Shown here: one piece after another, positions 1 through 18,105 of the stretch
Numbering within the stretch: position 1 is the first letter of the stretch
Layout of the letters: every line of letters begins with the position of its first letter
Origin: Gammaproteobacteria bacterium
Lineage (GTDB): Bacteria; Pseudomonadota; Gammaproteobacteria; Steroidobacterales; Woeseiaceae
DNA: 43,480 nucleotides
Assembly: GCA_030425905.1 (NCBI GenBank)
Contig: JAUHZT010000010.1
Location: forward strand, 1-43,480
Direction: 5' to 3'
Notes under the pieces: generated by a model
The model's input: only the letters and a program-made list of their open reading frames with translations
What the model was told of the DNA's origin: nothing
Database searches by the model: none
Position numbers and translations under genes: made by a program

Positions 1-56
1 GGACTCAGCAGACGACCCTGTGGAACTTCACGTACTTTCTGTGGCTGCGAACTCAT
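1..56 (-). CDS. 5' end of an unidentified gene (cut by window edge)
   Basis: An ATG at 54-56 on the minus strand overlaps the stop of the FAD oxidoreductase gene in an ATGA junction. An AGGAGA ribosome site sits about 8 bases before it. Only 18 codons are visible, beginning MSSQPQKVREVPQGRLLS, so no family can be named. The ideal ribosome site and the 4-bp coupling make it very likely the next member of the leftward operon with the two PYROXD2-type oxidoreductases and the class III aminotransferase. The family is unknown. Confidence 0.6.
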   Translation of the reverse strand, partial: MSSQPQKVREVPQGRLLS

Positions 57-1597
57 GCCGATTTCTCCTGGCGCAATATCGTGCGTGCTGCGTTACGTCC
101 TGCGGCACCGCTAATGCCGCCACCCGGGTGCGCGCCTGCGCCGCAGAGGTACAGCCCGTCTATCGGCAGTGCGTACTGTGCGGCACCGTTAACCGGCCGG
201 ACGAACAGGAACTGGTCCAGCGTGAGCTCGGCGTGATGCCAGTGGCCACCCGTGATATGAAATTCCTGTTCGATGTCGGCCGGCGTTAATAGCTCACTGG
301 CCGTGATCAATGACCTCAGGCCCGGCGCGTAACGTTCCAGCGTGTCGAGAATGGTGTTCTGGAAAGCCTCGTGCGTGGCATCCGACCAGCCGTCGCGTAA
401 TTCGTACGGCGCGTATTGCACGACCGCGGACAGCACATGCTTGCCCGTGGGTGCCAGCGTCTCGTCGCGAACGCTCGGAAAGCTCAATTCGATAACCGGG
501 GCGGGTGATGTCTCGCCGTACTTGGCCGGGTTGAATGCGCGCTCGACATAGTTTTCGTCGGGCGCGATCACAATGCGTTCGGCAAAATCCTTTTTCGACA
601 GGCCGTCAATGACAGGCAGGCTGTCGAGTGCGAGATGCAGCTTTGCGGCATTGCCTTTTGCGCGCAGGTGACTGATGCGTCGTGCAAACCCGGTCTCGAA
701 GTGCTTCGCACCCACGAGATCCATAACGGTGCGTTTGGGATCGGCATTTGAGACGACGCGAAAACTGTTAAAGCGCTCGCCACTTTCCGTTTCGACGCCT
801 GCGACACGACCGTTCTCGATGACGATACGTTTAACTGGCATGCCGGTGCGAATCGTAACGCCGTTACTGCGCGCGATATGTGCGAGGTCGTCGCTGAGTG
901 CACCGGCACCACCTGCCGCGGTAGCGACCTTGCCGTGTCCGCCGGCTTGCCGGTACAGGTAAGTCAGGATGGTGTTCGGCGAACGCGGGCCGAGATGGGT
1001 GCCGAGAACCGCATCGAGGCTGATCGCTCCTTTGAGCAGACCGCTACTGAAACGCTCAGTGACTTCATCGTAAATGTTCATGCCGATCAGGCGCAGGAAC
1101 TCGCGCATCTCGTGCTTGCCAAGCCTGCGAATGTCGAAGCCGAGCTGCGCGAGCGTCATCAGGTCGGCGGCTTTCTTTGTGCCGAGCCGTGGCGGCGGCT
1201 TGTTCAGGTAGGTTGTCAGCAAGTCAGCAAAGCGCGTCATGCGTTTGCGGAAGTCCCGGTATTCCTTCGCGTCTTCGTCGGACACGCCGTCGACCGAGTT
1301 CGCCTTGAGGCGCACATGCTGTCCGTCTTCGGCCAGGGCTATCGTGCCGAGGTTATCGCTCGCGAGTCGCGGTTTCAGGCCGAGTTCTTTCTGCACGACA
1401 GGCTGTAGCTGGTACAGGAGGTGTGCGCAGGCCGAAACCGAGTAGCCGTCGGCAAACTCACGCGTGATCGCAGCGCCGCCAACCTGTGCGTTCGCCTCGA
1501 GCACCAGAACGCTTTTGCCGGCTTTGGCGAGTAAAGCCGAGCACACGAGACCGTTGTGCCCGCCGCCGACGATAATGGCATCGTAGGTATCAGTCAT
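53..1597 (-). CDS. PYROXD2/CrtI-type FAD-dependent oxidoreductase (second of a tandem pair)
   Basis: A 514-residue flavoprotein of the phytoene-desaturase-like amine oxidase superfamily. The N-terminal dinucleotide-binding motif is IIVGGGHNGL (about residues 8-17), with the acidic end of strand 2 in VLVLEAN. The C-terminal FAD-binding block is LYLCGAGAHPGGGISGAAG, the usual ending of PYROXD2-like proteins. No signal peptide is seen, so it is probably cytoplasmic. The ATG at 1597 has GGAG about 9 bases upstream and overlaps the stop of the upstream paralogue by 8 bp (ATGACTGA). It is therefore coupled to that gene and to the cut gene at the left edge. The substrate is not readable from sequence; with an aminotransferase upstream and amine transport nearby, oxidation of a C-N or C-C bond in an amine catabolite is an inference. 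Confidence 0.88.
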   Translation of the reverse strand: MTDTYDAIIVGGGHNGLVCSALLAKAGKSVLVLEANAQVGGAAITREFADGYSVSACAHLLYQLQPVVQKELGLKPRLASDNLGTIALAEDGQHVRLKANSVDGVSDEDAKEYRDFRKRMTRFADLLTTYLNKPPPRLGTKKAADLMTLAQLGFDIRRLGKHEMREFLRLIGMNIYDEVTERFSSGLLKGAISLDAVLGTHLGPRSPNTILTYLYRQAGGHGKVATAAGGAGALSDDLAHIARSNGVTIRTGMPVKRIVIENGRVAGVETESGERFNSFRVVSNADPKRTVMDLVGAKHFETGFARRISHLRAKGNAAKLHLALDSLPVIDGLSKKDFAERIVIAPDENYVERAFNPAKYGETSPAPVIELSFPSVRDETLAPTGKHVLSAVVQYAPYELRDGWSDATHEAFQNTILDTLERYAPGLRSLITASELLTPADIEQEFHITGGHWHHAELTLDQFLFVRPVNGAAQYALPIDGLYLCGAGAHPGGGISGAAGRNAARTILRQEKSA

Positions 1598-3206
1598 CGC
1601 CGAAATTCTCCGGAACAGTGTTGGGACGTTTCATATCGAGCAGAATCTCGCGCGCCGCATTCGCACCTGGCGCGGCCATCACGCCGCCACCCGGGTGCGT
1701 GCTGGAGCCGCACATGTACAAGCCGGCAACCGGGCCGCGGTACTGTGCATAGCCGGGCACGGGGCGGTTGAACAGTAGCTGGTCCATGGTCAGTTCGCCG
1801 TGAAAAATATTGCCTTCGGTAATACCGATCTGTTCTTCGATATCCTGCGGGGTGCGAACCTCCATGTGCAGGATCAGGTCCTTGAAGTCAGGGCTGTAGT
1901 TTGCGATCTGATCGACGACGGTCTTGCCGAACTCGTCGCGTTCGGCGTCGGTCCAGCGGCGTCCTTCGATCTGGTGCGGGCAGTACTGCACGAAACAACT
2001 CATGAAGTGTTTGCCGGGCGGCGCCATGGTCGGGTCGTTGAGCGTCGGGATCAGCATGTCCACGTAGGGGTCTTTCGACCAGCGGCCTTCCTTCCAGTCA
2101 TCGTAGGCACGCTCCATGCGTTCAGGCGAATCGATAAAGTGCATGTCGCTGTGGATCAGGCTGCTGCCTTTGGGCAGTGCCGGGAAAGTCGGCAGGCCGT
2201 CGAGTGCGATATTCAGTTTGCCCGACGAGCCTCGAATCTTGAAGTTCTTGACGCGGCGATAGAACCACTCCGGCAGGTCGCTTTCCTGCATGCAATTGAG
2301 GAAGGTTCGCTTGACGTCCATCGCCGAGACGACGACCGGGCTGCTGATTTCCTCGCCGTTTTCCAGCGCAACGCCGGCCACTTTGCCGTTGCGTACGATA
2401 ATCTGGTCGACGCCCGCTTCGGTGCGCAGTTCGCCGCCCGCGGCCTGGAACGCGCTGGCGATGGATTTCGAAACGGCCCCCATGCCGCCACGCGCGAAGC
2501 CCCAGCTACCCACATTGCCGTCCACTTCACCCATGTAGTGATGCAGCAATACGTAGGCCGTGCCCGGTGAATGCACACCGAGCGCTGTGCCGATAATGCC
2601 GCTGCCGGAGAACGCGGCCTTGATGACATCGGATTCGTAGTACTCGTCCAGGTACTCGGCAACGCTCATGGTCCAGAAACGGATGGTTTCGTTCATCCGG
2701 TCCTCGCCCATCTCGAGAAACTTCTTGCCGATTTTCATGAGTTCGCGAATGTCGGACGGTTTAAGCGACGTAGGGTCGGGCGCCGTGCTTAGCAGGAATT
2801 CTCGAATGAAGCGGCACTGGCGCATCGTGTCAGCCGAATAACGCTTGTAGGCATCCGCGTCGTGTCGCGAGATGCGTGCCATCTCGCGGTAGGCCACTTC
2901 CTCGTCGTGGTACGAGCCAAAATAGTCGCCGTTTTCCATGAACGTGACCGAGCCGCCATACGGTGTTATCTGCAGACCATGCTTGTGCAACTCAAGCGCC
3001 CGGTAGATTTCCGGCCGTAACAGGCTGCATACATACGAACAGTTCGAATACATCCAGTCCTTGTAGAGATTTCGACTAACGGCGGCACCGCCGATGTAGT
3101 CGTTCTTCTCCACGCAGACAACGTCGAGCCCGGCGCGAGCCAGGAAAGCCGCAGACGTCAGTCCGTTGTGACCGGCGCCGACAACTATCGCATCATAGGT
3201 TTTCAT
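1590..3206 (-). CDS. PYROXD2/CrtI-type FAD-dependent oxidoreductase (first of a tandem pair)
   Basis: A 538-residue paralogue of the following gene, sharing its layout. The N-terminal FAD motif is IVVGAGHNGLTSAAFLARAG (residues 7-26) and the C-terminal FAD block is LYMCGSSTHPGGGVMAAPG. Both proteins share the late segment with ELTMDQLLFNRPVPGYAQY or its equivalent. The two copies are clearly diverged rather than a recent duplication, so they may act on successive intermediates or as a heteromer. The start at 3206 lies 40 bp from the stop of the class III aminotransferase on the same strand. The flavin-dependent oxidation role is family knowledge; the substrate is unknown. A carotenoid desaturase role is unlikely because no phytoene synthase or other carotenoid gene is nearby. 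Confidence 0.88.
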   Translation of the reverse strand: MKTYDAIVVGAGHNGLTSAAFLARAGLDVVCVEKNDYIGGAAVSRNLYKDWMYSNCSYVCSLLRPEIYRALELHKHGLQITPYGGSVTFMENGDYFGSYHDEEVAYREMARISRHDADAYKRYSADTMRQCRFIREFLLSTAPDPTSLKPSDIRELMKIGKKFLEMGEDRMNETIRFWTMSVAEYLDEYYESDVIKAAFSGSGIIGTALGVHSPGTAYVLLHHYMGEVDGNVGSWGFARGGMGAVSKSIASAFQAAGGELRTEAGVDQIIVRNGKVAGVALENGEEISSPVVVSAMDVKRTFLNCMQESDLPEWFYRRVKNFKIRGSSGKLNIALDGLPTFPALPKGSSLIHSDMHFIDSPERMERAYDDWKEGRWSKDPYVDMLIPTLNDPTMAPPGKHFMSCFVQYCPHQIEGRRWTDAERDEFGKTVVDQIANYSPDFKDLILHMEVRTPQDIEEQIGITEGNIFHGELTMDQLLFNRPVPGYAQYRGPVAGLYMCGSSTHPGGGVMAAPGANAAREILLDMKRPNTVPENFGDD

Positions 3207-3246
3207 TCTTTGGGTAAACCCTCTTTCTTAAGACCGCTCGCCTGGC

Positions 3247-4572
3247 TCAGGCTCTCTTGGCCTGTGCTGTTATTTTGTCCGAGGTAATGTCCACGGCGCG
3301 CTCAAATTTGTCCAGTGTTTCGTCGAGGCAGCCGTCTTTGTGAGCTTCGCACAGGAACCATGGTTCGCGCGAGTCCGGTTCGACAAGAATGCCCTGGTCG
3401 TGCAGTTCCGGTGCCAGTGCATCATAGAACTCGTAGTCTGATTCCAGCCAGGCGCGATAATCGCGCGGCGGCTGTTCAGCAAAGAACAATCCCATCAGTG
3501 CGGGATGGCCAGTGAAGCTGTGCACAATGCTGCGTGCGTCAAGAATCCGGCTGATGCCTGCCTGCAGTTTGAGGCCGTAACTTTCTATATCCTCGAAGGC
3601 GCTCGTCTCGTCGAGTATCTGCAGTGTCTTGTTCGCCGCGGCCAGTGACACGGAGTGACCGGTGAATGTGCCGCCGTGTACCACCCCATCGCCAATGTGC
3701 CGCATGATGTCCTCGCGGCCGGCGACCACCGCAATGGGGTAACCGTTCGCCATGGCTTTGGCGAACGTGCAGACATCCGCTTTGATGCCGAACAGTTCCT
3801 GCACGCCACCGCGCGCGACTCGAAAGCCGGTTTTTACTTCGTCGACGATAAGAACGATGTTGTATTTGTCGCAAAGCTGGCGCACAGCTTCGAGGTATTC
3901 GCGGTCGGCGGTGATGCCGCAACAGTTGCCCATGATTGGTTCGATCAGGAACGCGCCGATGTGCTGGTGGTTGCGCTTGAGCAGATCCTCGACGGCATTG
4001 GCATCGTTCAGTGGCGCCGTATAGAACAGACGCTTCGTTACGGCAGGCACGCCGTCGCCAAAAGGCATCAGTGGTGGGTTGCCGTCGGCCGGGTCCCAGT
4101 CCTCGATCTCCGAGTACCACATAACTTCACTGAACACGCCGTGGTAGCCGCCTTCGACAACGACGTGCGCGTCCTTGCCCGTGTAAGCGCGTGCCACCCG
4201 CAAGGCCGCCATGACAGCCTCGGTCCCGGAGTTTGAAAAACGCACGAGTTCGGCGGCCGGGACCATGCGACTGACCTGGCTTGCAACTTCGTATTCGAGT
4301 TCGGTTGACAGCGCGAACACGCCGCCGACGTGCATGCCGTCGCGCGCCGCTTCGTCGACCCGGTCATCCGCGTAACCGAGAATTATGGGACCGTAGGCGA
4401 GGCGGTAATCAATGTACTCATTGTCATCAATATCCCATATACGGCCACCTTTGCCGCGTTTGATGTAAATGGTCTTGTCGTCACCCCAGTAACGAAAGTT
4501 GGACGAGACGCCCAGCGGCATCTTTTGTTCGGCTCGTTTGAAATGGGCATTGGAATTCTTCAGGCACCGCAT
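3247..4572 (-). CDS. Class III PLP aminotransferase, glutamate-1-semialdehyde aminomutase-like
   Basis: A 441-residue fold-type I PLP enzyme resembling HemL and omega-transaminases. Visible elements are the phosphate-binding SNSGTEA (about 114-120), the PLP-pyridine aspartate in IVDEVKTGF (D244) and the Schiff-base lysine in FAKAMANGYP (K272). I place the start at 4572, where GAGGAGG lies 5 bases before ATG. The frame is open 25 codons further to 4647, but that extension lacks a ribosome site and runs into the operator-like palindrome. It is first gene of the leftward operon with the two FAD oxidoreductases and diverges from the BetI-like regulator. It is unlikely to be the haem-pathway HemL given this catabolic setting; transamination of an amine or amino acid in the same pathway is inferred. 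Confidence 0.88.
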   Translation of the reverse strand: MRCLKNSNAHFKRAEQKMPLGVSSNFRYWGDDKTIYIKRGKGGRIWDIDDNEYIDYRLAYGPIILGYADDRVDEAARDGMHVGGVFALSTELEYEVASQVSRMVPAAELVRFSNSGTEAVMAALRVARAYTGKDAHVVVEGGYHGVFSEVMWYSEIEDWDPADGNPPLMPFGDGVPAVTKRLFYTAPLNDANAVEDLLKRNHQHIGAFLIEPIMGNCCGITADREYLEAVRQLCDKYNIVLIVDEVKTGFRVARGGVQELFGIKADVCTFAKAMANGYPIAVVAGREDIMRHIGDGVVHGGTFTGHSVSLAAANKTLQILDETSAFEDIESYGLKLQAGISRILDARSIVHSFTGHPALMGLFFAEQPPRDYRAWLESDYEFYDALAPELHDQGILVEPDSREPWFLCEAHKDGCLDETLDKFERAVDITSDKITAQAKRA

Positions 4573-4636
4573 ACAACCTCCTCGCAGCTGGCCAGCCTGA
4601 AATATCTCATGGAGCAGGGCTTGGGGTCCAGAAAAA

Positions 4637-4654
4637 TGAATGAGCATTCATTCA
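4637..4654. promoter_or_regulatory. Candidate TetR-family operator (7-bp-arm palindrome)
   Basis: TGAATGA-GCAT-TCATTCA is a perfect inverted repeat with 7-bp arms and a 4-bp centre. It lies in the divergent interval between the class III aminotransferase start (4572) and the BetI-like regulator start (4730). TetR-family repressors often bind palindromes of this size next to their own gene, and TGAATGA half-sites are recalled for FadR-type TetR regulators of acyl-CoA genes. Binding by the adjacent regulator is an inference. The site is positioned to control both the leftward oxidoreductase operon and the rightward regulator/importer operon. Confidence 0.6.
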
Positions 4655-4674
4655 GAATATGGCATCATTCGGCA

Positions 4675-4694
4675 TTGAATGCGTTACTATTCAA
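4675..4694. promoter_or_regulatory. Second inverted repeat in the divergent promoter
   Basis: TTGAAT and ATTCAA form 6-bp arms separated by 8 bp. A CATTC/GAATG pair (4666-4670 and 4677-4681) overlaps it. Together with the palindrome at 4637-4654, ATTCA-type half-sites recur several times over about 60 bp. This could be a second operator or chance in an AT-richer promoter. Confidence 0.3.
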
Positions 4695-4729
4695 GCGTTC
4701 TGGATGCACTTTTCGGGGTCCCCCTGCCT

Positions 4730-5374
4730 ATGGCAAACACAGCCAAAGTATCGATTGCGCGAACCGAGGCGCGCGCAAGGCGGCGTCAGCAGCTGATCGA
4801 GGCCACCATGAAGTGTATTGGCCGCAAAGGCATAGGCGGCACAACCCTGGCGGATGTGGCGGGTGAGGCCGGTCTGTCGCAGGGCATCGTCAACCTGCAT
4901 TTTCAAAGCAAGGACAACCTGTTTCGCGAGACCCTGCAATATCTCGCCGAAGAGTACCGTTCCAAGTTCGAGGGTGTGCTCGAACGCGCCGATTCGTCAC
5001 CCGCGGCAAGCCTGATGGCGCTCATGGAACTCGACCTGAGTCCGTCAATCTGCCAGCCGATGAAGCTGGCCGTCTGGTTTGCCTTCTGGGGCGAGGTCAA
5101 GTCGCGGCCAACCTATCGCAAGATATGCGATGAGATCGACCGCTACTACGACGAGGTTGTAGAGCGCTTGTGCGACGAGATTATCAAGGACGGTTACTAC
5201 CCCAACGTTACCGCGAACAACGTGGCAACCGCGCTTACTTCAATGACCAACGGGCTGTGGTTGTCTTGTTTGATCAGTCCGCAAAGCTGGAACAGGCACG
5301 ATGCACTTGATGCCGTGCGCTGTTACCTGTCGGTCGTTTTTCCCCAACATTTCAGGAGATCCGGAGCAACGTGA
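4730..5374 (+). CDS. BetI-like TetR/AcrR transcriptional regulator
   Basis: A 214-residue regulator. The N-terminal TetR domain has RRRQQLIEATMKCIGRKG, then a helix-turn-helix at about 39-58 (TLADVAGEAGLSQGIVNLHF). The C-terminal half has VWFAFWGEV and a late NGLWLSCL segment, both typical of the BetI branch, which controls choline/betaine genes in E. coli. An ATG at 4679 is in frame, but the extra 17 residues do not look like the family. The start at 4730 matches BetI length, though neither start has a strong ribosome site. It shares its stop with the GTG of the acyl-CoA dehydrogenase (GTGA), so the two are coupled. It likely binds the palindrome at 4637-4654 and senses an amine or acyl-CoA intermediate; the effector is unknown. 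Confidence 0.88.
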   Translation: MANTAKVSIARTEARARRRQQLIEATMKCIGRKGIGGTTLADVAGEAGLSQGIVNLHFQSKDNLFRETLQYLAEEYRSKFEGVLERADSSPAASLMALMELDLSPSICQPMKLAVWFAFWGEVKSRPTYRKICDEIDRYYDEVVERLCDEIIKDGYYPNVTANNVATALTSMTNGLWLSCLISPQSWNRHDALDAVRCYLSVVFPQHFRRSGAT

Positions 5375-6531
5375 ACATTGAGCTTAGTGATACGGCAAAA
5401 GAGTGGCAGGCAACTGCCCGCGCGTTTGCAGATGATTACCTGCAGCCGCACGAGGTCGAGGCGGAGCTCAACAATGGGGAGCTGTCGCCGGCGCTGACAA
5501 AACGTAACAAGGCACGCGCCATCGAGCTTGGCTTTACACTGATTGATGTGCCGAAGGCCTACGGTGGTCTCGCGCTGCCGCTCGAAACGCAGGTTGCCAT
5601 CTGGGAGCAGCTCGGGCGCGTCACCAATGCGCTTTCCTGGTGTTTCTCCGAGGCGCAGGAGTGGATGTTTGAGGCGTGCACCGAGGAGCAGATCCAGACC
5701 TACGTAATGCCCATGACGCGGGGTGAGCGCAAAGACTGCTATGCCATCACGGAATCCGGCCCGGGTTCCGACGTTGCGGGTCTCGATGCTACGGCAGAGC
5801 GCGACGGCGACGAGTATGTGCTCAACGGAGAAAAATGGTACGTGACCAGCGCCAACCTGGCCGACTTTATTTTCTTCCAGGCGCGCATCACCGACGAAGA
5901 CGAGGATGCCCTGTTCTTTGTTGATCAAGGCACACCGGGCATTGTCGAAACGGCCAATCCGCTGTTCAGTCACACCTACGCGTCGCATCATCCTACCTAT
6001 CGCTTCGACAACGTGCGCGTGCCTGCGAGCAAGCGCATTGGCCGACCCGGCGACGGCATGGCGTATACGCATAGCTGGTTTCGTCACGAACGACTCATGA
6101 TTGGCGCACGTAGCTGTGGCGCGGCGGCGCGACTCATCGAAGAAGCGACCGATTTTGCGAGCAAGCGCATCGTCGACGGTGCGCCGCTCAGTGAGAAACA
6201 ACTGATCCAGGCAATGCTTGCCGACAGCGTGACCGAGCTGTGGGCGGCGCGCCTGATGACCTATGAAGCAGCGCGCGCGAGCGATCGCGGTGACGACCTG
6301 AAAGCGCAGCATGCCCGTTGTTCCATGGTCAAACTCTACGTTTCGGAGATGGCGAATCGCGTCGCCGACCGGGTGCTGCAGATCTTTGGCGGTCGTGGCT
6401 ATATGCGTGAAAACGTGGCCGAACGCTTTTTCCGGGAGTTACGGGTCGATCGCATCTGGGAAGGCACGAGTGAAATCCAGCGGCTAATTATTGCGCGGGC
6501 CTTGCTCAAACGCGGTCTCGAGGGTATGTAA
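5371..6531 (+). CDS. Acyl-CoA dehydrogenase
   Basis: A 386-residue flavoenzyme of the normal acyl-CoA dehydrogenase length. Family blocks are CYAITESGPGSD in the middle domain, NGEKWYVTSA, QIFGGRGYM, and the end signature RIWEGTSEIQRLIIAR. The catalytic base is expected to be E364 in that last motif, as in medium-chain and short-chain enzymes. It should oxidise an acyl-CoA alpha-beta bond and pass electrons to ETF. The GTG start at 5371 overlaps the regulator stop and has GGAGATCCGGAG upstream. No CoA ligase or CoA transferase is visible nearby, so the source of the CoA ester is an open question. The polyamine importer follows 38 bp downstream. Confidence 0.92.
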   Translation: MNIELSDTAKEWQATARAFADDYLQPHEVEAELNNGELSPALTKRNKARAIELGFTLIDVPKAYGGLALPLETQVAIWEQLGRVTNALSWCFSEAQEWMFEACTEEQIQTYVMPMTRGERKDCYAITESGPGSDVAGLDATAERDGDEYVLNGEKWYVTSANLADFIFFQARITDEDEDALFFVDQGTPGIVETANPLFSHTYASHHPTYRFDNVRVPASKRIGRPGDGMAYTHSWFRHERLMIGARSCGAAARLIEEATDFASKRIVDGAPLSEKQLIQAMLADSVTELWAARLMTYEAARASDRGDDLKAQHARCSMVKLYVSEMANRVADRVLQIFGGRGYMRENVAERFFRELRVDRIWEGTSEIQRLIIARALLKRGLEGM

Positions 6532-6569
6532 TAGCAAGTCCTGCCATCACGAGCCTCGAACGGAGCAGT

Positions 6570-7688
6570 ATGGAGTTACCTCGAACGTCCGCCGCTGTTT
6601 GCCTGCTTGCGCTCGCTTTGACGCTGTCGTCCTGTTCGCAAGAGGGCGCCGGCGGTGGTAGCGGCAAGAATGTCGTCAACGTTTTCAACTGGGCCGACTA
6701 TTTGGCGCCGGACACGCTGGCAACGTTTGAAGCCGAGACCGGCATTAAGGTCAACTACGACATTTACGACTCCTCCGAGGTGGTCGACGTCAAAATGCTG
6801 ACCGGCAATAGCGGCTACGACGTTGTTGTGCACAGCTATCAGTACTCTGCGCGTCTCGCGCCGATTGGTATCTACCAGCCACTCGACTATGCGCGTTTCA
6901 ATAATCTTGGCAATCTTGACCCGCAGGTAATGGCCGAGATCGACGTTTACGAAACCGTCCGCGGCTACACCGTGCCCTATCATTGGGGTACCACAGGCTA
7001 TGCCTACAACGAGCGGATGGTTCGTGAGCGCCTGCCCGAGCACCCGATGGACAGCGCCGATGTCCTGTTTGATCCGGATGTTGTCAGCAAGCTTGCAGAT
7101 TGCGGCGTGACGCTGCTCGATGGGCCTACGGATCTCTTTCCGATGGTGCTTACCTATCTCGGCCTTGACCCGAACTCGACGGACCCTGACGACCTCGCGG
7201 TTGCCGAAGCGCAGCTAAAGAAAGTGCGGCCCTATATTCTCTATTTCAGCAATCAGAAAATGATCTCCGATTTACCCAATAAGGAGGTTTGTGTTGCGAT
7301 GAGCTGGTCAGGCGATTTTGCCCAGGCAGCGGCGCGCGCGGAGGAGGCCGGTATCGACATAGACCTGCGTTATACCGTTCCCAAAGAGGGCTCGCGCCTG
7401 TGGGTTGACGGCTTTTTTATCCCGGCCGATGCGCCGCATACAGACAACGCGTACCGGTTTATCGATTTCATGACGCGCGCCGACATCGCGGCTAAAAATG
7501 CCAACTCGGTCTACTACGCCAATGCGAACGCGGCGTCCTGGCCTATGGTCGATCGCGAGATACTGGACAACCCGGCCATTTTCCCCGACGAGGCAACCTG
7601 GGGCGTGATGTTTCCGGTGAACCCCGTCGGGCCAAAAGAAGAGCGACCCCGGACCCGCGCATTTGCCCGCGTAAAGAGTGGTCTCTGA
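6570..7688 (+). CDS. potF: Polyamine-binding lipoprotein of ABC importer (PotF-like)
   Basis: A 372-residue solute-binding protein close to E. coli PotF throughout. It differs in having a lipoprotein signal: LTLSSC with the lipid-carrying Cys22. Expected amine-contact residues appear as W41 and D43 (FNWADYLAPDT), W246 and D249 (MSWSGD) and D280 (LWVDGFFIPAD). The end, RTRAFARVKSG, also matches PotF. GGAG lies 4 bases before the ATG. The stop overlaps the ATPase start (TGATG). It delivers its ligand to the two permeases that follow. Putrescine is the reference ligand, but homologues bind other polyamines or guanidino and quaternary amines. The neighbourhood makes a substrate of the adjacent oxidative enzymes plausible. 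Confidence 0.93.
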   Translation: MELPRTSAAVCLLALALTLSSCSQEGAGGGSGKNVVNVFNWADYLAPDTLATFEAETGIKVNYDIYDSSEVVDVKMLTGNSGYDVVVHSYQYSARLAPIGIYQPLDYARFNNLGNLDPQVMAEIDVYETVRGYTVPYHWGTTGYAYNERMVRERLPEHPMDSADVLFDPDVVSKLADCGVTLLDGPTDLFPMVLTYLGLDPNSTDPDDLAVAEAQLKKVRPYILYFSNQKMISDLPNKEVCVAMSWSGDFAQAAARAEEAGIDIDLRYTVPKEGSRLWVDGFFIPADAPHTDNAYRFIDFMTRADIAAKNANSVYYANANAASWPMVDREILDNPAIFPDEATWGVMFPVNPVGPKEERPRTRAFARVKSGL

Positions 7689-8821
7689 TGGAGCACAGGC
7701 AGGAACAGTCCAGTAAGGCCACGGGTGCGCGCAAGGACTTTATTCGTATTCGCAATGTCAGCAAGCATTTTGGCGACTTCGTTGCGGTAGACGACGTGAA
7801 CCTGGACATCGGCAAAGGTGAGTTGTTCTCGATTCTCGGCGGCTCCGGCTGCGGCAAGACGACCCTGCTAAGAATGTTGGCGGGTTTCGAGATCCCCACG
7901 GCCGGTACGATAGAAATTGACGGCCACGATGTCACGAATTTGCCTCCGTATGAGCGGCCGGTAAACATGATGTTTCAGTCTTACGCCGTCTTTCCGCACA
8001 TGAATGTGGAGAAGAACATTGCTTATGGTCTCGTGAAGGATGGAATCAACAAGGACGAGATCGCGAAGCGCGTGGATGCGATGCTCGAACTGGTACAGCT
8101 TGGTGACTTCCGGCGCCGCAAACCAGCGCAGTTGTCGGGTGGCCAGCGACAGCGCGTGGCGCTGGCGCGCGCCCTGATCAAGAAACCAAAGGTTCTGTTG
8201 CTCGACGAGCCGCTTGCGGCACTCGACAAGAAGTTACGCGAGCACACCCAGTTTGAACTCATGAATATTCAGTATGAGCTTGGCATAACCTTTGTGGTGG
8301 TGACGCATGATCAGGAAGAGGCGATGACGCTGTCGAGCCGGATTGCGGTCATGGATAAGGGGCGCTTCAGGCAGGTTGGCACGCCCAAAGAGGTCTATGA
8401 ATTTCCCGAGAACCGTTTTGTTGCCGGTTTCATCGGCACGATCAATACGTTCCGCGGTCGCGTAACTGCGATTAATGAAGAAACCATTTCCGTACATTCC
8501 GACGAGCTTGGGCTCAGTCTTCCGGCGCTCGGCAAGCACGCCGTGGAGATCGGACAGGAAGTGGATATCGCCGTGCGGCCCGAGAAGATATTCCTCGACC
8601 GGGACCGGCCGACCAATGACGAGGACACAATCTTGCAAGGGGTGGTCGACGATCTTGGCTACCTGGGCAATCGGTCGCTGTACCGCATCCGTTTGCCAGG
8701 CGGGCGAATCATCCAGGCCAGTTCGCAGAATCGGCGCCGTTCAGTGACGCGTTTTCTCGAGTGGGAAGACAAGGTCTGGGTTTCCTGGCGGCCGCGCAGT
8801 GCTGTGGTGCTGATCGACTGA
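7688..8821 (+). CDS. potG: Polyamine ABC importer ATPase (PotG-like)
   Basis: A 377-residue ABC ATPase. Walker A is GGSGCGKTT (51-59), the signature LSGGQRQ (149-155), Walker B LLLDEP with D-loop AALDKK, and the switch histidine in VVVTHDQEEA (H207). The C-terminal 130 residues form a TOBE-type regulatory domain with VRPEKIFL, as in PotA/PotG and MalK. It energises the PotH/PotI-like permease pair. Its ATG overlaps the stop of the binding protein by one base, and only one base separates its stop from the next ATG, so all four transporter genes are read as one operon. Confidence 0.94.
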   Translation: MEHRQEQSSKATGARKDFIRIRNVSKHFGDFVAVDDVNLDIGKGELFSILGGSGCGKTTLLRMLAGFEIPTAGTIEIDGHDVTNLPPYERPVNMMFQSYAVFPHMNVEKNIAYGLVKDGINKDEIAKRVDAMLELVQLGDFRRRKPAQLSGGQRQRVALARALIKKPKVLLLDEPLAALDKKLREHTQFELMNIQYELGITFVVVTHDQEEAMTLSSRIAVMDKGRFRQVGTPKEVYEFPENRFVAGFIGTINTFRGRVTAINEETISVHSDELGLSLPALGKHAVEIGQEVDIAVRPEKIFLDRDRPTNDEDTILQGVVDDLGYLGNRSLYRIRLPGGRIIQASSQNRRRSVTRFLEWEDKVWVSWRPRSAVVLID

Positions 8822-8822
8822 T

Positions 8823-9722
8823 ATGTCGAGTGCTGCCAGGGCAAACCGGGACTTACTGTGGCAGCGAGTTGCTATCGCCACACCGTACCTGTGGCTACTG
8901 CTGTTCTTCCTTGTTCCCTTTGCCATCATCCTTAAAATCAGCCTCGCCGACCCGATTGTGGCGCAGCCGCCGTTCACGCCAAGCTTCGATGACGAAGGCG
9001 CGCTAGCCGTCTCGCTTGATAATTTTCGCTTCCTGCTTACCGACAAGCTGTATGCGGTTACCTACCTGCGTTCTGTTGTGATTGCGGGCATCGCGACGCT
9101 CCTCTGTCTCGCGCTCGGGTTTCCGATGGCCTACGGCATTGCGCGGGCGCGTGAAGAAACGCGCGGTCTGTTGCTGCTGTTAATCGTATTGCCGTTCTGG
9201 ATCAGCTTCCTGTTGCGCGTGTATGCGTGGATGGGACTGATGAATAATCACGGTGTCATTAACAATACGCTGATCTGGCTTGGCATCATCGACACGCCCA
9301 TGCAGATGATGTACACGGATTTCGCCGTGTTCGTTGGCCTGACTTATTCCTACCTGCCCTTCATGATCCTGCCGCTGTACGCCACGCTCGAGCGCATGGA
9401 TCTCGATTTCGTGGAGGCGGCGCAGGACCTGGGCGCCACCCGAACCCGGGCATTCTGGGATGTAACCTGGCCACTCGCTCGCCCCGGCGTGATAGCCGGC
9501 TGCCTGCTGGTCTTTATTCCGGCGATGGGCGAATACGTCATTCCGTACCTGCTCGGCGGACCTGAATCCCTGCTTATCGGCCGCGTCTTGTTCGACGAAT
9601 TTTTCGTGAATCGCGACTGGCCGCTGGCTTCGGCGGTAGCGGTGGTACTGCTCCTGCTACTGGTTGTGCCTATCGTTATCCTGCAGCGCAACCAGGCGCG
9701 CGACGCCGAGGGCGAGGCATGA
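8823..9722 (+). CDS. potH: Polyamine ABC importer permease (PotH-like)
   Basis: A 299-residue inner-membrane permease with about six transmembrane helices, the first at roughly residues 18-38. The EAA loop that docks on the ATPase is visible as DFVEAAQDLGATRTRAFWDVTWPLARPG. A motif typical of PotB/PotH is GEYVIPYLLGGPESLLIG near the C-terminus. The stop overlaps the next start in an ATGA junction. With the PotI-like partner it forms the membrane channel of the amine importer. Confidence 0.93.
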   Translation: MSSAARANRDLLWQRVAIATPYLWLLLFFLVPFAIILKISLADPIVAQPPFTPSFDDEGALAVSLDNFRFLLTDKLYAVTYLRSVVIAGIATLLCLALGFPMAYGIARAREETRGLLLLLIVLPFWISFLLRVYAWMGLMNNHGVINNTLIWLGIIDTPMQMMYTDFAVFVGLTYSYLPFMILPLYATLERMDLDFVEAAQDLGATRTRAFWDVTWPLARPGVIAGCLLVFIPAMGEYVIPYLLGGPESLLIGRVLFDEFFVNRDWPLASAVAVVLLLLLVVPIVILQRNQARDAEGEA

Positions 9723-10522
9723 ACCGCACATCGCGCCTGATCACCTCGATACTCGCGTTCGGCTACGCGTTCTTGTATGTGCCACTGATTCTGGTAGTGG
9801 TTTACTCCTTCAATGACTCGCGCATTGCCACGGTATGGGGCGGCTTTTCAACGCGCTGGTACGGTGAGCTGCTGCGCAACGACCAGGTTCTTGACGCGGC
9901 TTTCTTAAGTTTCCGTGTCGCGTTCATGTCGGCCAGCATGGCGACGATACTTGGAACAATGGCGGGACTCGCGCTGGCACGCTTTTCGCGGTTCAGGGGA
10001 AGAACACTGTTTTCCGGGATGATCACATCGCCCATGGTTATGCCCGAAGTTATCACCGGCCTGTCACTGCTGTTGCTGTTTGTGAGTCTGCAACAGCTAA
10101 CCGGCTGGCCGGGGCAGCGAGGCTTTTCCACGATCACCATTGCCCATACAACGTTTGCCATGGCCTACGTTGCCGTTATTGTGCAATCGCGCCTGTCGTC
10201 GATGGATGAGTCACTTGAAGAAGCGGCGATGGACCTGGGAGGTCGACCGTTGCGCGTGGTGTTCGACATTACCTTGCCGCTGATAGCACCAGCGATGGTG
10301 GCGGGCTGGTTGCTCGCATTCACGCTGTCGCTGGATGATCTCGTGATCGCGAGTTTCGTGTCCGGGCCGGGCAGCAGCACCCTGCCAATGTACATTTTTT
10401 CAAAGGTGAAGCTGGGCGTATCGCCGGATATCAATGCCCTCGCAACGCTTATCATCCTGTTCGTAAGCGCAGGCGTGCTTATCGCCTGGCTGGTTGCACG
10501 TCGCGCACGCCGTGTGGCGTGA
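9719..10522 (+). CDS. potI: Polyamine ABC importer permease (PotI-like)
   Basis: A 267-residue permease with about six membrane helices, the second transmembrane subunit of the importer. The EAA loop is SLEEAAMDLGGRPLRVVFDITLPLIAP. The late segment LDDLVIASFVSGPGSSTLPM is characteristic of PotC/PotI. It is coupled to PotH by a 4-bp overlap. The class V PLP enzyme starts 30 bp downstream, so that enzyme is probably co-transcribed with the importer. Confidence 0.93.
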   Translation: MNRTSRLITSILAFGYAFLYVPLILVVVYSFNDSRIATVWGGFSTRWYGELLRNDQVLDAAFLSFRVAFMSASMATILGTMAGLALARFSRFRGRTLFSGMITSPMVMPEVITGLSLLLLFVSLQQLTGWPGQRGFSTITIAHTTFAMAYVAVIVQSRLSSMDESLEEAAMDLGGRPLRVVFDITLPLIAPAMVAGWLLAFTLSLDDLVIASFVSGPGSSTLPMYIFSKVKLGVSPDINALATLIILFVSAGVLIAWLVARRARRVA

Positions 10523-10551
10523 GTTATCGCATCCTGTAGGAGTATTTTTTC

Positions 10552-11718
10552 GTGATTGATATAGAGGCGGTTCGTGCTGACACGCCCGGTTGCAGGCATG
10601 TAATCCATTTCAACAATGCGGGCGCGTCCCTGATGCCCGATCCGGTTTTCGCGGCCGTGGTGGAGCACCTTGAGCTTGAGCGAAACATCGGCGGCTACGA
10701 AGCGGCAAAGCAGGCGTCGGGCGAGCTTGAGCAGTTCTATACCAATTTTGCGCGCCTGCTGGGCGCGCAGCCGGATGAAATTGCGTACGTTGAGAACGCG
10801 ACCCGCGCCTGGGACATGGCGTTCTACAGCCTCCCGCTCGGCAAGGGCGATCGTGTGCTGACGCACGATTCCGAGTATGTATCCAACTATCTTGCGCTGT
10901 TGCAGCAGGCACAACGGCGCGGCTTTGAAATTGACCTGGTGCCGTCAGATGCGCACGGTCAGGTCGACGTGGACGCGATGGCGGACATGATCAGGCCCGC
11001 GACGAAACTGATCGCCCTGACGCACGTCCCGACCCAGGGCGGGCTCGTCAATCCGGCAGCCGCAGTCGGCAGGCTGGCCCGGGAGCATGGATTGTTCTAC
11101 TTGCTTGACGCCTGCCAGTCGGTTGGCCAGCTACCGCTTGATGTCAAAGAACTGGGTTGTCACATGCTCTCCGGCACTGGCCGAAAGTTTCTGCGCGGAC
11201 CACGCGGTACGGGGTTCCTGTATGTGAGCCGCGAGGTGACCGAGCAACTCGACCCGCCATTCATCGACCTGCATTCAGCCCTCTGGACGGAAGAGCAGTC
11301 CTTCGAGTTTCTGCCGGGCGCCAAACGTTTTGAGAACTGGGAGTGCTACGTGGCGGGACGGCTCGGGCTGGCACGCGCGGTTCGTTACGCGCTTGATATC
11401 GGCATCGAGGTGATCGAGCAGCGCGTTAAAGCGCTGGCAACGCGCCTGCGTGCGCGGCTCGGAGAACTGCCGGACTTGACCGTGCATGATCTCGGCGAAG
11501 AAACCTGCGGTATCGTCACCTTCCGCTGTGCCAGTGAGCCCGCCGGAGATGTCGCCGCCCGTCTGCATGCGGCGGGCATCAACGTATCGACGACTACCCG
11601 GGCGGCCGCTCGGCTGGATTTCGGCAGGCGTGATCTGGACCAGCTAGTGCGGGCATCGGTGCACTACTACAATACGGAAAACGAGATTGACCGGTTCATC
11701 GAGATGTTTGCCGGCTGA
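10552..11718 (+). CDS. Class V PLP-dependent aminotransferase / cysteine-desulfurase-like enzyme
   Basis: A 388-residue fold-type I PLP enzyme of the class V superfamily. Visible features are FNNAGASLMP near the N-terminus (20-29), THVPTQGGLVNP (157-168), the PLP-binding DACQSVGQ (D186, Q189) and the Schiff-base lysine in SGTGRKFLRGPRGTGFLY (K212). Relatives include isopenicillin-N epimerase, EgtE-type C-S lyases, kynureninase-like and aminotransferase members, so the reaction cannot be fixed. The GTG start has AGGAG about 10 bases upstream. The TGA stop abuts the TGA of the convergent Rieske gene back to back, forming TGATCA. Its place behind the importer suggests it acts on the imported amine or a derivative. 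Confidence 0.87.
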   Translation: MIDIEAVRADTPGCRHVIHFNNAGASLMPDPVFAAVVEHLELERNIGGYEAAKQASGELEQFYTNFARLLGAQPDEIAYVENATRAWDMAFYSLPLGKGDRVLTHDSEYVSNYLALLQQAQRRGFEIDLVPSDAHGQVDVDAMADMIRPATKLIALTHVPTQGGLVNPAAAVGRLAREHGLFYLLDACQSVGQLPLDVKELGCHMLSGTGRKFLRGPRGTGFLYVSREVTEQLDPPFIDLHSALWTEEQSFEFLPGAKRFENWECYVAGRLGLARAVRYALDIGIEVIEQRVKALATRLRARLGELPDLTVHDLGEETCGIVTFRCASEPAGDVAARLHAAGINVSTTTRAAARLDFGRRDLDQLVRASVHYYNTENEIDRFIEMFAG

Positions 11719-12942
11719 TCAGACGGGGCGCTGCAGCTCCTGCATGAGCCATTCCACGTAGGTTTTTTCAGCACGTTCCATGCCCGAAAACGGGCCGGGC
11801 CGATAAAATCGTGAGTGCACGCCTTTCGAGTTATTGACGATAATGGTCTTGTCAGCCTCGGTGGTAACGTCCCACAACCAGGTGAGTTCGTCGACATTGT
11901 AGTCTTTGCCTTCTACGGCATCGCCACGCACCAGCCAGTAGATATCACAACGTGAATTGTCCATGTCGACGGGCGTGAAAACATAGGCGACCACGTGATC
12001 GCTGTAGGCGAGCAGGAACGAGAACGCGCCGAAAGAAAAGTCCGAAGCGCCACCGTCGTAGTCTTTGAGTTCGCCGAGCAATGGCGCCACGGGACTGCCG
12101 TCACGGCTGCCGGTCTTGTAGCCGTCAAACAGGGCCGTGCGGCTGTAGCCATAGCCAATCTCACCGGGGCGAGCGGCGGTGTCAATTCGGTCGATGTAGA
12201 TATCACGCAGACCGCAGGCTTCGAGTTTCTCCAGCATATGGTCTTGCACGCGCTCCCGTTTCTTGCGGTCGAGCATCAGCGTATGCATGCGTGCATAGTC
12301 GGGATGAGCGGTGGCGCAGTGGTAGCACTCCTGGTAGTTCTCGATCGACAGTTTCCAGTTTGCCGGGATCGGGTATTCCTTGCAGGCGGCAACCTTCAGG
12401 TTCTCGAAATCGAACAGGGCCATGGGCTCCGCAAGTTCCTTGCGACAATTCTCAACCGAGGGCGCATCCTGGGACAGGCAGATAAGGATCAGCCCATGTA
12501 TCAATTCGCAGGACAGCCTGTGCAGGCCGTGCGCACCCCAGTCGAAGTCCTCGGGCATATCGCGCGCGCCAACCAGTTTGCCATCGGTGTCATAAACCCA
12601 GCCGTGGTAAGGGCAGGTAAACTTTCGTGTGTTGCCCTGCGCCTCAAGGCATACCAGTGAGCCGCGGTGCCGGCAAACATTCGCGAAGGCGTTTATTGTG
12701 CCGTCCTGTGCGCGCACGATAATGGCTGACTCCCGGCCTACCTTGAAGACTTTGTAGTCACCCGGCTGCGGAATCTCCGACTGGTGTCCGGCAAGAATCC
12801 AGTTGCGATTAATGATGCGTTCCAGTTCGAGCTCATAAATTTCCGGGTCAACATAAAAGCGTTGATCCAGTGAGCGCCCCGGAGGCTGGTCTGCAATAAG
12901 TTGCTCAACGGTCCGTGTATCGTTTTGCTGTTCTGGTGTCAT
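11719..12942 (-). CDS. Rieske oxygenase alpha subunit, quaternary-amine (CntA/GbcA) type
   Basis: A 407-residue non-haem iron oxygenase. The Rieske [2Fe-2S] ligands are C90-R-H92 and C110-PY-H113. The catalytic iron site is ENYQECYHCATAH, with H208 and H213; a Glu (E205) stands where ring-hydroxylating dioxygenases carry the bridging Asp. That Glu and the ECYHC sequence are features I recall from carnitine oxygenase CntA and glycine-betaine monooxygenase GbcA. N-demethylation or C-N cleavage of a betaine-type substrate is therefore more likely than attack on an aromatic ring. No reductase partner (CntB/GbcB) is visible in this window. It reads toward the importer operon; PurU lies 115 bp upstream on the same strand. 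Confidence 0.88.
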   Translation of the reverse strand: MTPEQQNDTRTVEQLIADQPPGRSLDQRFYVDPEIYELELERIINRNWILAGHQSEIPQPGDYKVFKVGRESAIIVRAQDGTINAFANVCRHRGSLVCLEAQGNTRKFTCPYHGWVYDTDGKLVGARDMPEDFDWGAHGLHRLSCELIHGLILICLSQDAPSVENCRKELAEPMALFDFENLKVAACKEYPIPANWKLSIENYQECYHCATAHPDYARMHTLMLDRKKRERVQDHMLEKLEACGLRDIYIDRIDTAARPGEIGYGYSRTALFDGYKTGSRDGSPVAPLLGELKDYDGGASDFSFGAFSFLLAYSDHVVAYVFTPVDMDNSRCDIYWLVRGDAVEGKDYNVDELTWLWDVTTEADKTIIVNNSKGVHSRFYRPGPFSGMERAEKTYVEWLMQELQRPV

Positions 12943-13021
12943 TGCCGGGATTCCGAATTTCAGTTCTGTTTAGGTGGTCGATCGCGGCTACGATAGCACA
13001 AGCTTTGAGCGGCGGAACATG

Positions 13022-13042
13022 CCTGTTAATACGATAAACAGG
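13022..13042. other. Inverted repeat between purU and the Rieske gene
   Basis: CCTGTT and AACAGG form 6-bp arms around a 9-base loop, just past the purU stop on the minus strand. No T-run follows on that strand, so it is a poor intrinsic terminator. It could be an operator or mRNA-stabilising hairpin in the 115-bp gap. The rest of that gap shows no confident promoter. Confidence 0.25.
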
Positions 13043-13057
13043 TACTTCGTAAGCGCT

Positions 13058-13909
13058 TCAATCACGAAAGACAATCGTCTTGTTGCCGTTCAGCAGGACC
13101 CGTTCCTCGAGGTGGTATTGAATAGCGCGCGCGAGCACCCGGCGTTCGATGTCGCGACCTTTTCTTACCAGTGCTTCAGGCGAATCGGTATGACTGATAT
13201 GCTCGACGTCCTGCACAATAATAGGGCCTTCGTCGAGGTCGCCGGTAACATAATGTGCGGTTGCGCCGATGATTTTTACGCCGCGCGCATGGGCCTGGTG
13301 ATACGGTCGGGCACCTTTGAAACCGGGCAGGAAGCTATGGTGGATGTTGATGCAACGGCCCGTCAGGAACGACGCCATGTCGTCGGACAGGATTTGCATA
13401 TAGCGAGCCAGTACCACAAGTTCGGCGCCGGTTTCCTCGACGAGTTTCTTGATGGCGGCTTCCTGCTGCGGCTTGGTTTCCTTGCTGATAGGCAGGTGGT
13501 GAAACGGAATGTCACCGAGGTTCGACGTGTGCAGTGCTTCGCGTGGATGATTCGACGCCACGCCCACAATCTCCATGCCGAGTTCGCCAATACGCGTTCT
13601 GTACAGGAGGTCTGCAAGGCAGTGGTCCAGTTTCGACACGAGTATCAGGACGCGCTGTTTCTGGTCGATTGGGCGCATTCGCCAGCGCATACCGAACTTG
13701 CTGGCGAGCGCCTCTACGGACGAATTTAAGGACTGAACATCGGCCGTCGCGCTAAACACCACGCGCATGAAAAAATTGCCGGACTCCAGATCATCAAACT
13801 GCTGTGCGTCGAGGATGTTGCCATCGTTCTCGAGCAGCATATTGGCGACGGCCGCGACGAGGCCCTTGCGATCTACGCAGGAGAGAGTCAGTACATAGGA
13901 GTTAGTCAA
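13058..13909 (-). CDS. purU: Formyltetrahydrofolate deformylase PurU
   Basis: A 283-residue enzyme of the usual PurU length. An N-terminal ACT domain (about 1-75, beginning [19 protein letters not shown]) is followed by a formyltransferase-fold catalytic domain. The catalytic triad is visible as N188 and H190 ([11 protein letters not shown]) and D226 ([10 protein letters not shown]). It hydrolyses 10-formyl-THF to formate and THF. In pseudomonads purU genes are found with glycine-betaine and sarcosine demethylation genes, where it relieves one-carbon overload. Its position beside a betaine-type Rieske oxygenase fits that pattern here, though that link is inferred. Confidence 0.95.
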
Positions 13910-14165: not shown

Positions 14166-15371
14166 CTAGCCGGGTTTTCCGTCTGCGCGTGGCCGAACCA
14201 GTATTGGTACGTAGACGATCAGGAACAACAGGAAAGCGCTGAGCCACAAGGCCGACGCCAGGGCGACGGTTGCAAGGTAGTCGAGCGGCAAAACGGCTGG
14301 GCCGAACACCCGTGTAACGCCAGCCAGTAGTGTCAGGCCGTAGGCCCACGCAATGCGTTTTGAGACTTTCAGCGCTCGACCGGTATGCCCCAGCGAAGCG
14401 CGAGTCATGACCGCGAGAATCATCATGGCGGCGGCGCCTGCGCTGAGCGCGTGCAACCAGTGGGTCGCAAACTGAAATTCGCCAAGCAGGTACAGGGCGC
14501 GCAAGCCCAGTCCCACGGGTAGCCAGGCGTAGCCCGCATGCAGCGACCAGACAATCGGGTCCGATAAAGTGTGCAGACTTTGCCAGCCGGCCAGTCGTGC
14601 AAGTTGTGCAATGCAGGCGATAGCGGCAAGCGCTGCCATGAACTGGGGTACCAGCGAGAACAGCTCGGCAACCACAATCGCGAGCATGCTGCCTGTCACC
14701 AGCCACTCTACGGCTTTGCGATTCCGTGGCTCCACCGCAAGACCTTTCGCGCGTAAGGCGTTGGCCGTGAATGCCGGCACTATTCGTCCGCCAATGACTG
14801 TAATCAACAGCATTACCAGATCAATGCCGGCGTACAGCGCTTTGCGGGCAAGCTGTATGTCGTTGCTTTGCACGGCTATCAGGAACAGGAGGTCGAGCAA
14901 CCAGAATGCGAGCAGCACCAGCAGCAATGGCCGGTTGCGATTGCTTGAGCGCAGCAAAGAGGGCGCTATAAGTAATGCGAGCGCCGGCAGGAACAGAAGC
15001 TCTGTTGCGAATAGAACTTCGATACGGCGGTGGTGGCCCGATAAAGCGAAAGCTACCCGTCCGGCAATCCAGGTAAGCGTCAGCACGATCAGGGGCGCAC
15101 CAGCGAAGCCCCGGCTGCCTGTCCAGCTTGGTACCGCCGTTAGCATGAACCCGGCAATCGCGGCGGCTATGAAACCGTACAGCATTTCGTGGGCGTGCCA
15201 GAGTAACGAAGGCATGGCGAGAGCCGGCGTCGCGCCGCTGGTCAGTATCCAGAGCCAGGTTGCGATGGCGACGAAAGCATACAGGCCGGCAAGCAGGAAA
15301 AAGGGACGAAACCCGTAGCTGAACAAGGCGAACTGCGGGCTTGATTTTCGTGCTTGCGCGGGATTTTTCAT
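14166..15371 (-). CDS. nnrS: NnrS family membrane protein
   Basis: A 401-residue protein of about twelve membrane helices. The start FALFSYGFRPFFLLAGLYA and the HAHEMLYGFIAAAIAGF segment are hallmarks of NnrS, a haem- and copper-containing inner-membrane protein linked to resistance against nitric oxide and nitrosative damage. A histidine-bearing block LHALSAGAAAMMILAVMTRASLGHTGR is also conserved. The ATG overlaps the stop of the SirB2-like gene (ATGA). It is the last gene of the coupled nor operon. Its biochemical role is not settled in the literature; protection of iron pools from dinitrosyl-iron formation has been proposed. Confidence 0.92.
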   Translation of the reverse strand: MKNPAQARKSSPQFALFSYGFRPFFLLAGLYAFVAIATWLWILTSGATPALAMPSLLWHAHEMLYGFIAAAIAGFMLTAVPSWTGSRGFAGAPLIVLTLTWIAGRVAFALSGHHRRIEVLFATELLFLPALALLIAPSLLRSSNRNRPLLLVLLAFWLLDLLFLIAVQSNDIQLARKALYAGIDLVMLLITVIGGRIVPAFTANALRAKGLAVEPRNRKAVEWLVTGSMLAIVVAELFSLVPQFMAALAAIACIAQLARLAGWQSLHTLSDPIVWSLHAGYAWLPVGLGLRALYLLGEFQFATHWLHALSAGAAAMMILAVMTRASLGHTGRALKVSKRIAWAYGLTLLAGVTRVFGPAVLPLDYLATVALASALWLSAFLLFLIVYVPILVRPRADGKPG

Positions 15372-18051: not shown

Positions 18052-18105
18052 TTTCCATCCCCAGTTACAGTGAGATGATCTTGCCGCAATCGCCCACGGC
18101 GTCAC

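Follow-up and report, generated by a model that had tools for sequence, protein, structure and literature searches.

The window analysed here is an entire contig (C196; GenBank JAUHZT010000010.1, assembly GCA_030425905.1) of 43,480 nucleotides from a gammaproteobacterium of the Woeseiaceae, whose genome of 3.38 Mb is assembled in 240 contigs and 88.8% complete. Among the matches listed, metagenome-assembled genomes of Woeseiaceae and Gammaproteobacteria are its nearest named relatives. The first 13,909 nucleotides possess a core of two FAD-dependent flavoproteins and a GcvT-like protein, besides a TetR-family regulator, a PotFGHI-type transporter, a Rieske oxygenase and several further enzymes. 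All genes named in the preliminary description of this window are present according to gene calls and profile searches. The features are, with their strands:

1-56, minus: first codons of the GcvT-like gene (folate-binding aminomethyltransferase type), remainder on contig C225
53-1597, minus: flavoprotein 2, CrtI/CrtO-like FAD oxidoreductase
1590-3206, minus: flavoprotein 1, CrtI/CrtO-like FAD oxidoreductase, overlapping flavoprotein 2
3247-4647, minus: class III aminotransferase, GSAM/GntE-like (longest open reading frame; inferred start near 4572; PF00202, 204 bits)
4637-4654, no strand: predicted operator TGAATGA-N4-TCATTCA, an 18-base palindrome between the TetR and aminotransferase genes
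4679-5374, plus: TetR-family regulator, C-terminal domain of BetI type (PF13977, 64 bits); 4730 is a second possible in-frame start
5371-6531, plus: acyl-CoA dehydrogenase (PF00441, 152 bits), its GTG start overlapping the TetR stop
6570-7688, plus: PotF-like substrate-binding protein (SpuD/PotF structures, 306-326 bits)
7688-8821, plus: PotG/PotA-like ATPase (TIGR01187, 397.5 bits)
8823-9722, plus: PotH-like permease (NF007963, 370 bits)
9719-10522, plus: PotI-like permease (NF007889, 353 bits)
10552-11718, plus: class V PLP enzyme, SufS/EgtE-like (PF00266), a local addition
11719-12942, minus: Rieske oxygenase of group V type (quaternary ammonium), with bridging Glu and CntA-like Tyr
13058-13909, minus: PurU, formyltetrahydrofolate deformylase, TTG start (TIGR00655, 337.5 bits), upstream of the Rieske gene

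The GcvT-like gene, the unnamed coupled gene of the preliminary description, starts at position 56 of the minus strand via an ATGA overlap and then runs off the contig. The end of contig C225 of the same genome (7592 bases) matches the first 127 bases of the window exactly; C225 carries the complete gene (404 amino acids, GCV_T and GCV_T_C domains), followed by a gene for an ADP-forming acyl-CoA ligase. The four Pot genes occupy 6570-10522, with gene ends that overlap or lie one base apart. The start of the aminotransferase is placed near 4572 because the longer reading frame begins within the palindrome. Promoter and terminator scans yield no clear excess over shuffled sequence (6 against a mean of 5.8; 17 against 14.3).

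Conservation of the core and linkage of its partners

Many bacteria of sea and soil share the core, among them members of the Woeseiaceae, Halieaceae, Porticoccaceae, Rhizobiales and Rhodobacterales. Homologues of flavoprotein 1 (E<=1e-30, paralogues included) occur in 51 of 60 genomes, comprising the genome itself, 36 of its genus and 23 of its order, and the protein search returns at least 7,999 flavoprotein candidates, all with E<=1e-40. Around such homologues, down to 46% identity, 38 loci were taken; some of the contigs end inside the cluster, so that the counts are lower bounds. The flavoprotein pair is present in all 38 and the GcvT-like gene, as a clustered open reading frame, in 33. 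Counted by hand, the Rieske protein occurs in 19, the Pot system in 16 (omitting lone potG matches at 31-33% identity in L037 and L042), the TetR regulator in 15 and the aminotransferase in 13.

A scan of named genomes provided 79 loci from the best 80 of 592 confirmed matches, six of them repeating an already counted contig. Flanks of 10 kb are complete in 39 of these loci, and all 39 contain flavoprotein 1, flavoprotein 2 and the GcvT-like gene. TetR is found in 33, potH or potI in 24, acyl-CoA dehydrogenase and ADP-forming ligase in 15 each, a PuuA-type synthetase in 14, a flavin amine oxidase in nine, PurU in two and the class V PLP enzyme in none; some counts include cross-matches at 22-39% identity to distant ABC ATPases, permeases, Rieske proteins and aminotransferases. 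The class III aminotransferase is present at 55% identity or more in 9/39. In a survey of the phylum, 11 of 397 genomes match at E<=1e-180, the genome itself among them. The ten other loci all possess the core and TetR, and in the stretches retrieved an aminotransferase is found in eight, Pot permeases in seven and a flavin amine oxidase in seven. Of 21 plasmid records with a match, four were examined; these, from Rhizobium, Shinella, Parasedimentitalea and Fuscovulum, carry genes of the same kinds. The Parasedimentitalea locus adds further Rieske-type proteins and a protein of the histone-deacetylase family, to which acetylpolyamine amidohydrolases also belong. In Fuscovulum the cluster contains, in addition, a protein with a DMSP_lyase domain (L155, 23647-24498).

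An amine-related regulon shared with other genomes, as put forward in the preliminary description, finds its counterpart in relatives, where, contrary to what would have refuted it, the core genes do occur together. Its membership has to be narrowed, however: the class V PLP enzyme and PurU, both previously counted in, are excluded as core members. The former is missing from all other core loci (0/38 and 0/79), with homologues elsewhere in the genomes of relatives, and the latter occurs in 0/38 and 3/79, so both are regarded as local additions. PurU itself scores 337.5 bits in TIGR00655, over the cut-off of 285.95. One-carbon disposal is better assigned to the GcvT-like protein, of which only the first codons were available to the preliminary description.

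Within the genus the Pot system is part of the unit, yet the core also occurs without it. PotH has a single match in the genome itself (E<=1e-15) and one each in 15 of 36 genomes of the genus (E<=1e-60), in 14 of which no more than about 8 kb separates it from flavoprotein 1. This comparison was made by hand; G023 is counted on a flavoprotein 1 fragment at a contig end, and G024 is the exception. About half of the genus has the core without a Pot system.

These counts bear on the view that the polyamine transporter, the flavoproteins and the Rieske-PurU pair belong to unrelated operons, which happen to be neighbours and have different substrates. Besides the cores without a Pot system, such a view would account for the poor conservation of the class V PLP enzyme and PurU at the locus, and for a Rieske-PurU block that bears no palindrome in the window. 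It is nevertheless very improbable: in addition to the 14 of 15 Pot-bearing genomes just mentioned, the Rieske gene is convergent with PotI in 14 loci and immediately precedes flavoprotein 1, in the same orientation, in nine relatives (seven without the duplicate contigs L079 and L084), and similar gene sets are present in Alphaproteobacteria. The linkage counts, together with those of the palindrome, show that the grouping is not due to chance.

The regulator and the nearby palindrome

The motif TGAATGA-N4-TCATTCA has only one copy in the 43-kb window (mean of 0.01 in shuffles). Its distribution was followed in 94 loci not assigned to Alphaproteobacteria, after removal of six duplicate contigs and without correction for relatedness. 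With at least 13 of 14 letters it lies within 400 bases of TetR in 50 of the 52 loci that possess the regulator, a figure that is partly by construction since the letters were chosen from the same loci. The palindrome is found nowhere in the 42 loci without TetR, which is not by construction, though some of these contigs are short. The exceptions among the 52 are L101 and L110, the latter with a site of 12 of 14 letters at the expected place. Plain shuffling of a subset of the loci gives four sites of at least 12 letters in 917,338 bases. TetR is divergent in all 53 loci in which it lies upstream. In alphaproteobacterial loci the palindrome differs: only one of 17 with a full-length TetR match reaches 13 of 14 letters, and in several a related palindrome, TGATTG/TGAATG, is found at another place of the locus. 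The claim made here is for this reason restricted to loci outside the Alphaproteobacteria, in which the palindrome is probably the operator of the BetI-like repressor. Perfect copies are also present beyond the Pot genes in two loci labelled Haliea and one labelled Halioglobus (L110 at 321, L126 at 368, L131 at 11), and suggest further members of the regulon.

The regulator resembles the choline-sensing repressor BetI in its C-terminal domain, its divergent arrangement and the palindrome in between. It differs in reaching just 110.5 bits in the BetI equivalog TIGR03384 (cut-off 201.3), and no choline-oxidation gene is found among the genes annotated in the unit. The letters of the palindrome also differ from those of the BetI box.

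Protein families of the core, transporter and oxygenase

The GcvT-like protein exceeds the cut-offs of GCV_T (PF01571, 194.7 bits) and GCV_T_C (43.2 bits), but the copy on C225 stays under that of the glycine-cleavage protein GcvT (TIGR00528, 166 against 235.85 bits). At least 97% of 104 sequences share a DD motif. When the orthologue from locus L038 serves as query, the solved relatives are trimethylamine N-oxide (TMAO) demethylase, GcvT, dimethylglycine oxidase/dehydrogenase and sarcosine oxidase. The best of them is the C-terminal domain of the TMAO demethylase Tdm (9q5a, 156 bits). Tdm is also the best NCBIfam profile for the C225 copy (257 bits), but far under its cut-off of 1100 bits and with a match confined to positions 388-759 of 763. 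Dimethylglycine oxidase/dehydrogenase and sarcosine oxidase likewise combine an FAD oxidoreductase with a GcvT-type unit, and the GcvT-like protein matches their C-terminal parts; here, however, the FAD part is divided between two independent CrtI-like proteins, and a gene of its own encodes the GcvT part.

The two flavoproteins, described before as a PYROXD2-like tandem, have overlapping genes and by profile and fold are of CrtI/CrtO type (PYROXD2 itself was outside the comparison). Their fold relatives include putrescine oxidase. Scores in the curated CrtO profile are 245-265 bits against 1000, and in the CrtI family 128-130 against 238. Despite the CrtI-type fold, the carotenoid role that the name "phytoene dehydrogenase" implies is rejected on these low scores and the gene context. 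A paralogous locus on contig C138 of the same genome (L181, 5284-13817) contains a Rieske protein and a CrtI-type flavoprotein, besides a BCCT transporter of carnitine/betaine type, a sodium/solute symporter and a SoxB-like protein, and is consistent with such flavoproteins being linked to quaternary-amine breakdown.

The transporter resembles the PotFGHI/SpuD polyamine systems in its four-gene order, and PotF, with most of the pocket residues checked, may be a binding protein of polyamine type. The PotG-like protein passes the cut-off of the polyamine ABC ATPase subfamily TIGR01187 (355.6 bits), but PotF reaches only 339.6 of 636 bits in the equivalog NF007962. These pocket residues are W37, D39, Y40, E185, W244, D247, W276, D278 and Y314 in E. 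coli numbering. Eight of the nine are invariant in all 37 aligned sequences, the window included, the more distant alphaproteobacterial binding proteins being excluded from the alignment; the ninth, E185, is replaced by D, S or T.

Pocket residues and Pot family scores would suit an ordinary polyamine regulon for putrescine, spermidine or homospermidine. PotFGHI would import the polyamine, the flavoproteins would act as amine oxidases, aminotransferase and acyl-CoA steps would finish the chain, and the Rieske and GcvT-like proteins would serve side reactions. Putrescine oxidase among the fold relatives points the same way, and so do neighbours of the core: PuuA-, PuuB- and PuuC-like genes in pelagic gammaproteobacteria, a flavin amine oxidase in Rhizobiales. 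Yet a folate-binding GcvT-like partner accompanies the flavoproteins in 39/39 full-flank loci, and we know of no role for such a protein in putrescine or spermidine routes; nor would a group V Rieske protein with a quaternary-ammonium Tyr be needed. An ordinary polyamine substrate is considered unlikely, if the most plausible of the alternatives. PMC8437039 lists Puu and transamination routes of polyamine catabolism for SAR11. Uptake is similar there, and some relatives of the window have Puu-like genes close to the core; the list in the passage concerned contains neither the flavoprotein pair nor the GcvT-like and Rieske proteins.

The Rieske protein possesses the cluster CRH...CPYH and the motif NYQECYH, which aligns with NYMECYHC of CntA. 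The bridging Glu is present in 48/48 rows, and two positions before it a Tyr occupies the place of CntA Tyr203 in 48/48 full-length rows (three of them duplicates). The quaternary-amine features noted in the preliminary description are supported. Similarity to Stc2 extends over the full length (237 bits), whereas that to CntA (133 bits) covers residues 23-218 only; the profile of the glycine betaine monooxygenase GbcA (NF058607) gives 297 bits, under the cut-off of 670. The protein falls into group V, sharing the bridging Glu with CntA (Va), Stc2 and GbcA (Vb), but differs from them in placing the aromatic residue of Va on an otherwise Vb-like sequence. According to PMC7948474, the aromatic residue at CntA position 203 binds the ammonium group and marks group Va, while the group Vb enzymes GbcA and Stc2 carry Asn there and Stc2 grips its ligand by the carboxylate. 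By combining this Tyr with a Vb-like sequence, the protein points to a quaternary ammonium substrate that would be held without a nearby carboxylate.

Family and residues of this oxygenase, as well as the BetI-like regulator, would also fit a small betaine-like compound such as carnitine, gamma-butyrobetaine or trimethyllysine. The Rieske protein would start its demethylation, CoA ligase and acyl-CoA dehydrogenase would treat the acyl chain, and the specificity of the Pot system would have shifted. Crotonobetainyl-CoA dehydrogenase is indeed among the profile matches of the acyl-CoA dehydrogenase (183 of 540 bits), and the paralogous C138 locus has its BCCT transporter of carnitine/betaine type. 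That same separate locus could, however, already serve betaine-like solutes, and PotF keeps the Asp residues of a diamine pocket. This reading, too, is given a low probability. A substrate of homarine or trigonelline type is neither favoured nor disfavoured by the data.

Proposed pathway and neighbouring genes

The regulon is firm. As to its function, it is tentatively read, with somewhat less than even confidence, as a catabolic regulon induced by its substrate, an N-methylated, polyamine-like cation that would be taken up and oxidatively N-demethylated, because polyamine-type uptake and a quaternary-ammonium Rieske signature coincide with a folate one-carbon protein that is present in 39/39 full-flank loci. 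Inducer, substrate, order of steps and the working of the two flavoproteins and the GcvT-like protein as one enzyme are what we infer from these genes. The BetI-like repressor would bind TGAATGA-N4-TCATTCA between the divergent operons and be released by the amine or a product, and PotFGHI would bring the amine in. The Tyr of the Rieske protein would hold the quaternary ammonium group while the enzyme removes a methyl group or cleaves a C-N bond. The two flavoproteins might oxidise the remaining N-methyl amine, with the GcvT-like protein handing the one-carbon unit to tetrahydrofolate, so that the three together would correspond to a dimethylglycine dehydrogenase in split form. The class III aminotransferase, which scores 469.9 bits in the profile of the guanitoxin transaminase GntE (NF041362, cut-off 525), would strip the primary amine; ADP-forming CoA ligase and acyl-CoA dehydrogenase would pass the carbon chain on as acyl-CoA.

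Several observations weigh against this reading. The substrate is a deduction, and plain polyamine genes nearby could mean that it is unmethylated. In the PotF alignment, E185 is replaced in all 37 sequences (D in 23, S in 11, T in three) and S38 is A in 29. Among nine genomes of the order with PotH, only G048 has it linked to flavoprotein 1, and most of the others are without a close flavoprotein 1. The Rieske protein is not an obligatory member of the regulon: a match lies within 10 kb in 25/39 full-flank loci (distant matches counted) and in 4/10 survey loci, and the oxygenase differs in part of the family, that of Rhizobium SL42 being without the Tyr signature. No Rieske reductase is found in the cluster. 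FAD_binding_6 occurs at two places of the genome, of which the one examined is PaaE-like, with 134 of 500 bits in the GbcB profile. The only palindrome of the window lies between repressor and aminotransferase, with none near the Rieske-PurU block, which may or may not be under the same control.

In a bolder version, which is quite improbable, flavoprotein pair and GcvT-like protein would make up a new class of folate-coupled amine demethylases encoded by three genes, and the regulon would be specifically devoted to N-methylated polyamines. Its substrates could then be, for example, methylated long-chain polyamines from diatom silica, or methylated diamines from algae and plants. Such a route, if real, would explain the presence of the genes in sediment Woeseiaceae, pelagic gammaproteobacteria and rhizobia. 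No description of the gene set was found among the open-access papers listed, judged mostly by title and opening of the abstract. The regulon would give a function to many proteins named "phytoene dehydrogenase-like" or "aminomethyltransferase family", and bears on the question of which dissolved organic nitrogen compounds are consumed by bacteria of sediment, plankton and roots. Direct tests are feasible, since it has one likely operator and a transporter of its own and occurs in named strains that have been sequenced.

Other genes near the core vary among lineages. Several Rhizobiales loci contain an SAM-dependent methyltransferase between TetR and flavoprotein 1 (L143, 9022-9813; L149, 9008-9799), an odd presence for a purely demethylating pathway. 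Mostly in pelagic gammaproteobacteria, an aspartyl/asparaginyl-hydroxylase-like protein (L064, 18283-18843, and 16 other loci) and a long protein, TPR-rich by eye (L110, 1934-3919, and 14 other loci), are found near the core. Loci of Woeseiaceae type possess a gene downstream of the cluster that by eye resembles homocysteine S-methyltransferase (L042, 16590-17516; L052, L074, L075, L077 and L087). In the window itself, PurU is adjoined by NnrS, a SirB2-like protein and a NorB-type nitric oxide reductase with a cytochrome c-like domain and COX1 (14166-18105, minus strand), a nitric-oxide module outside the regulon. A protein of the penicillin-amidase family is encoded at 18540-20729 on the plus strand (PF01804, 400 bits).

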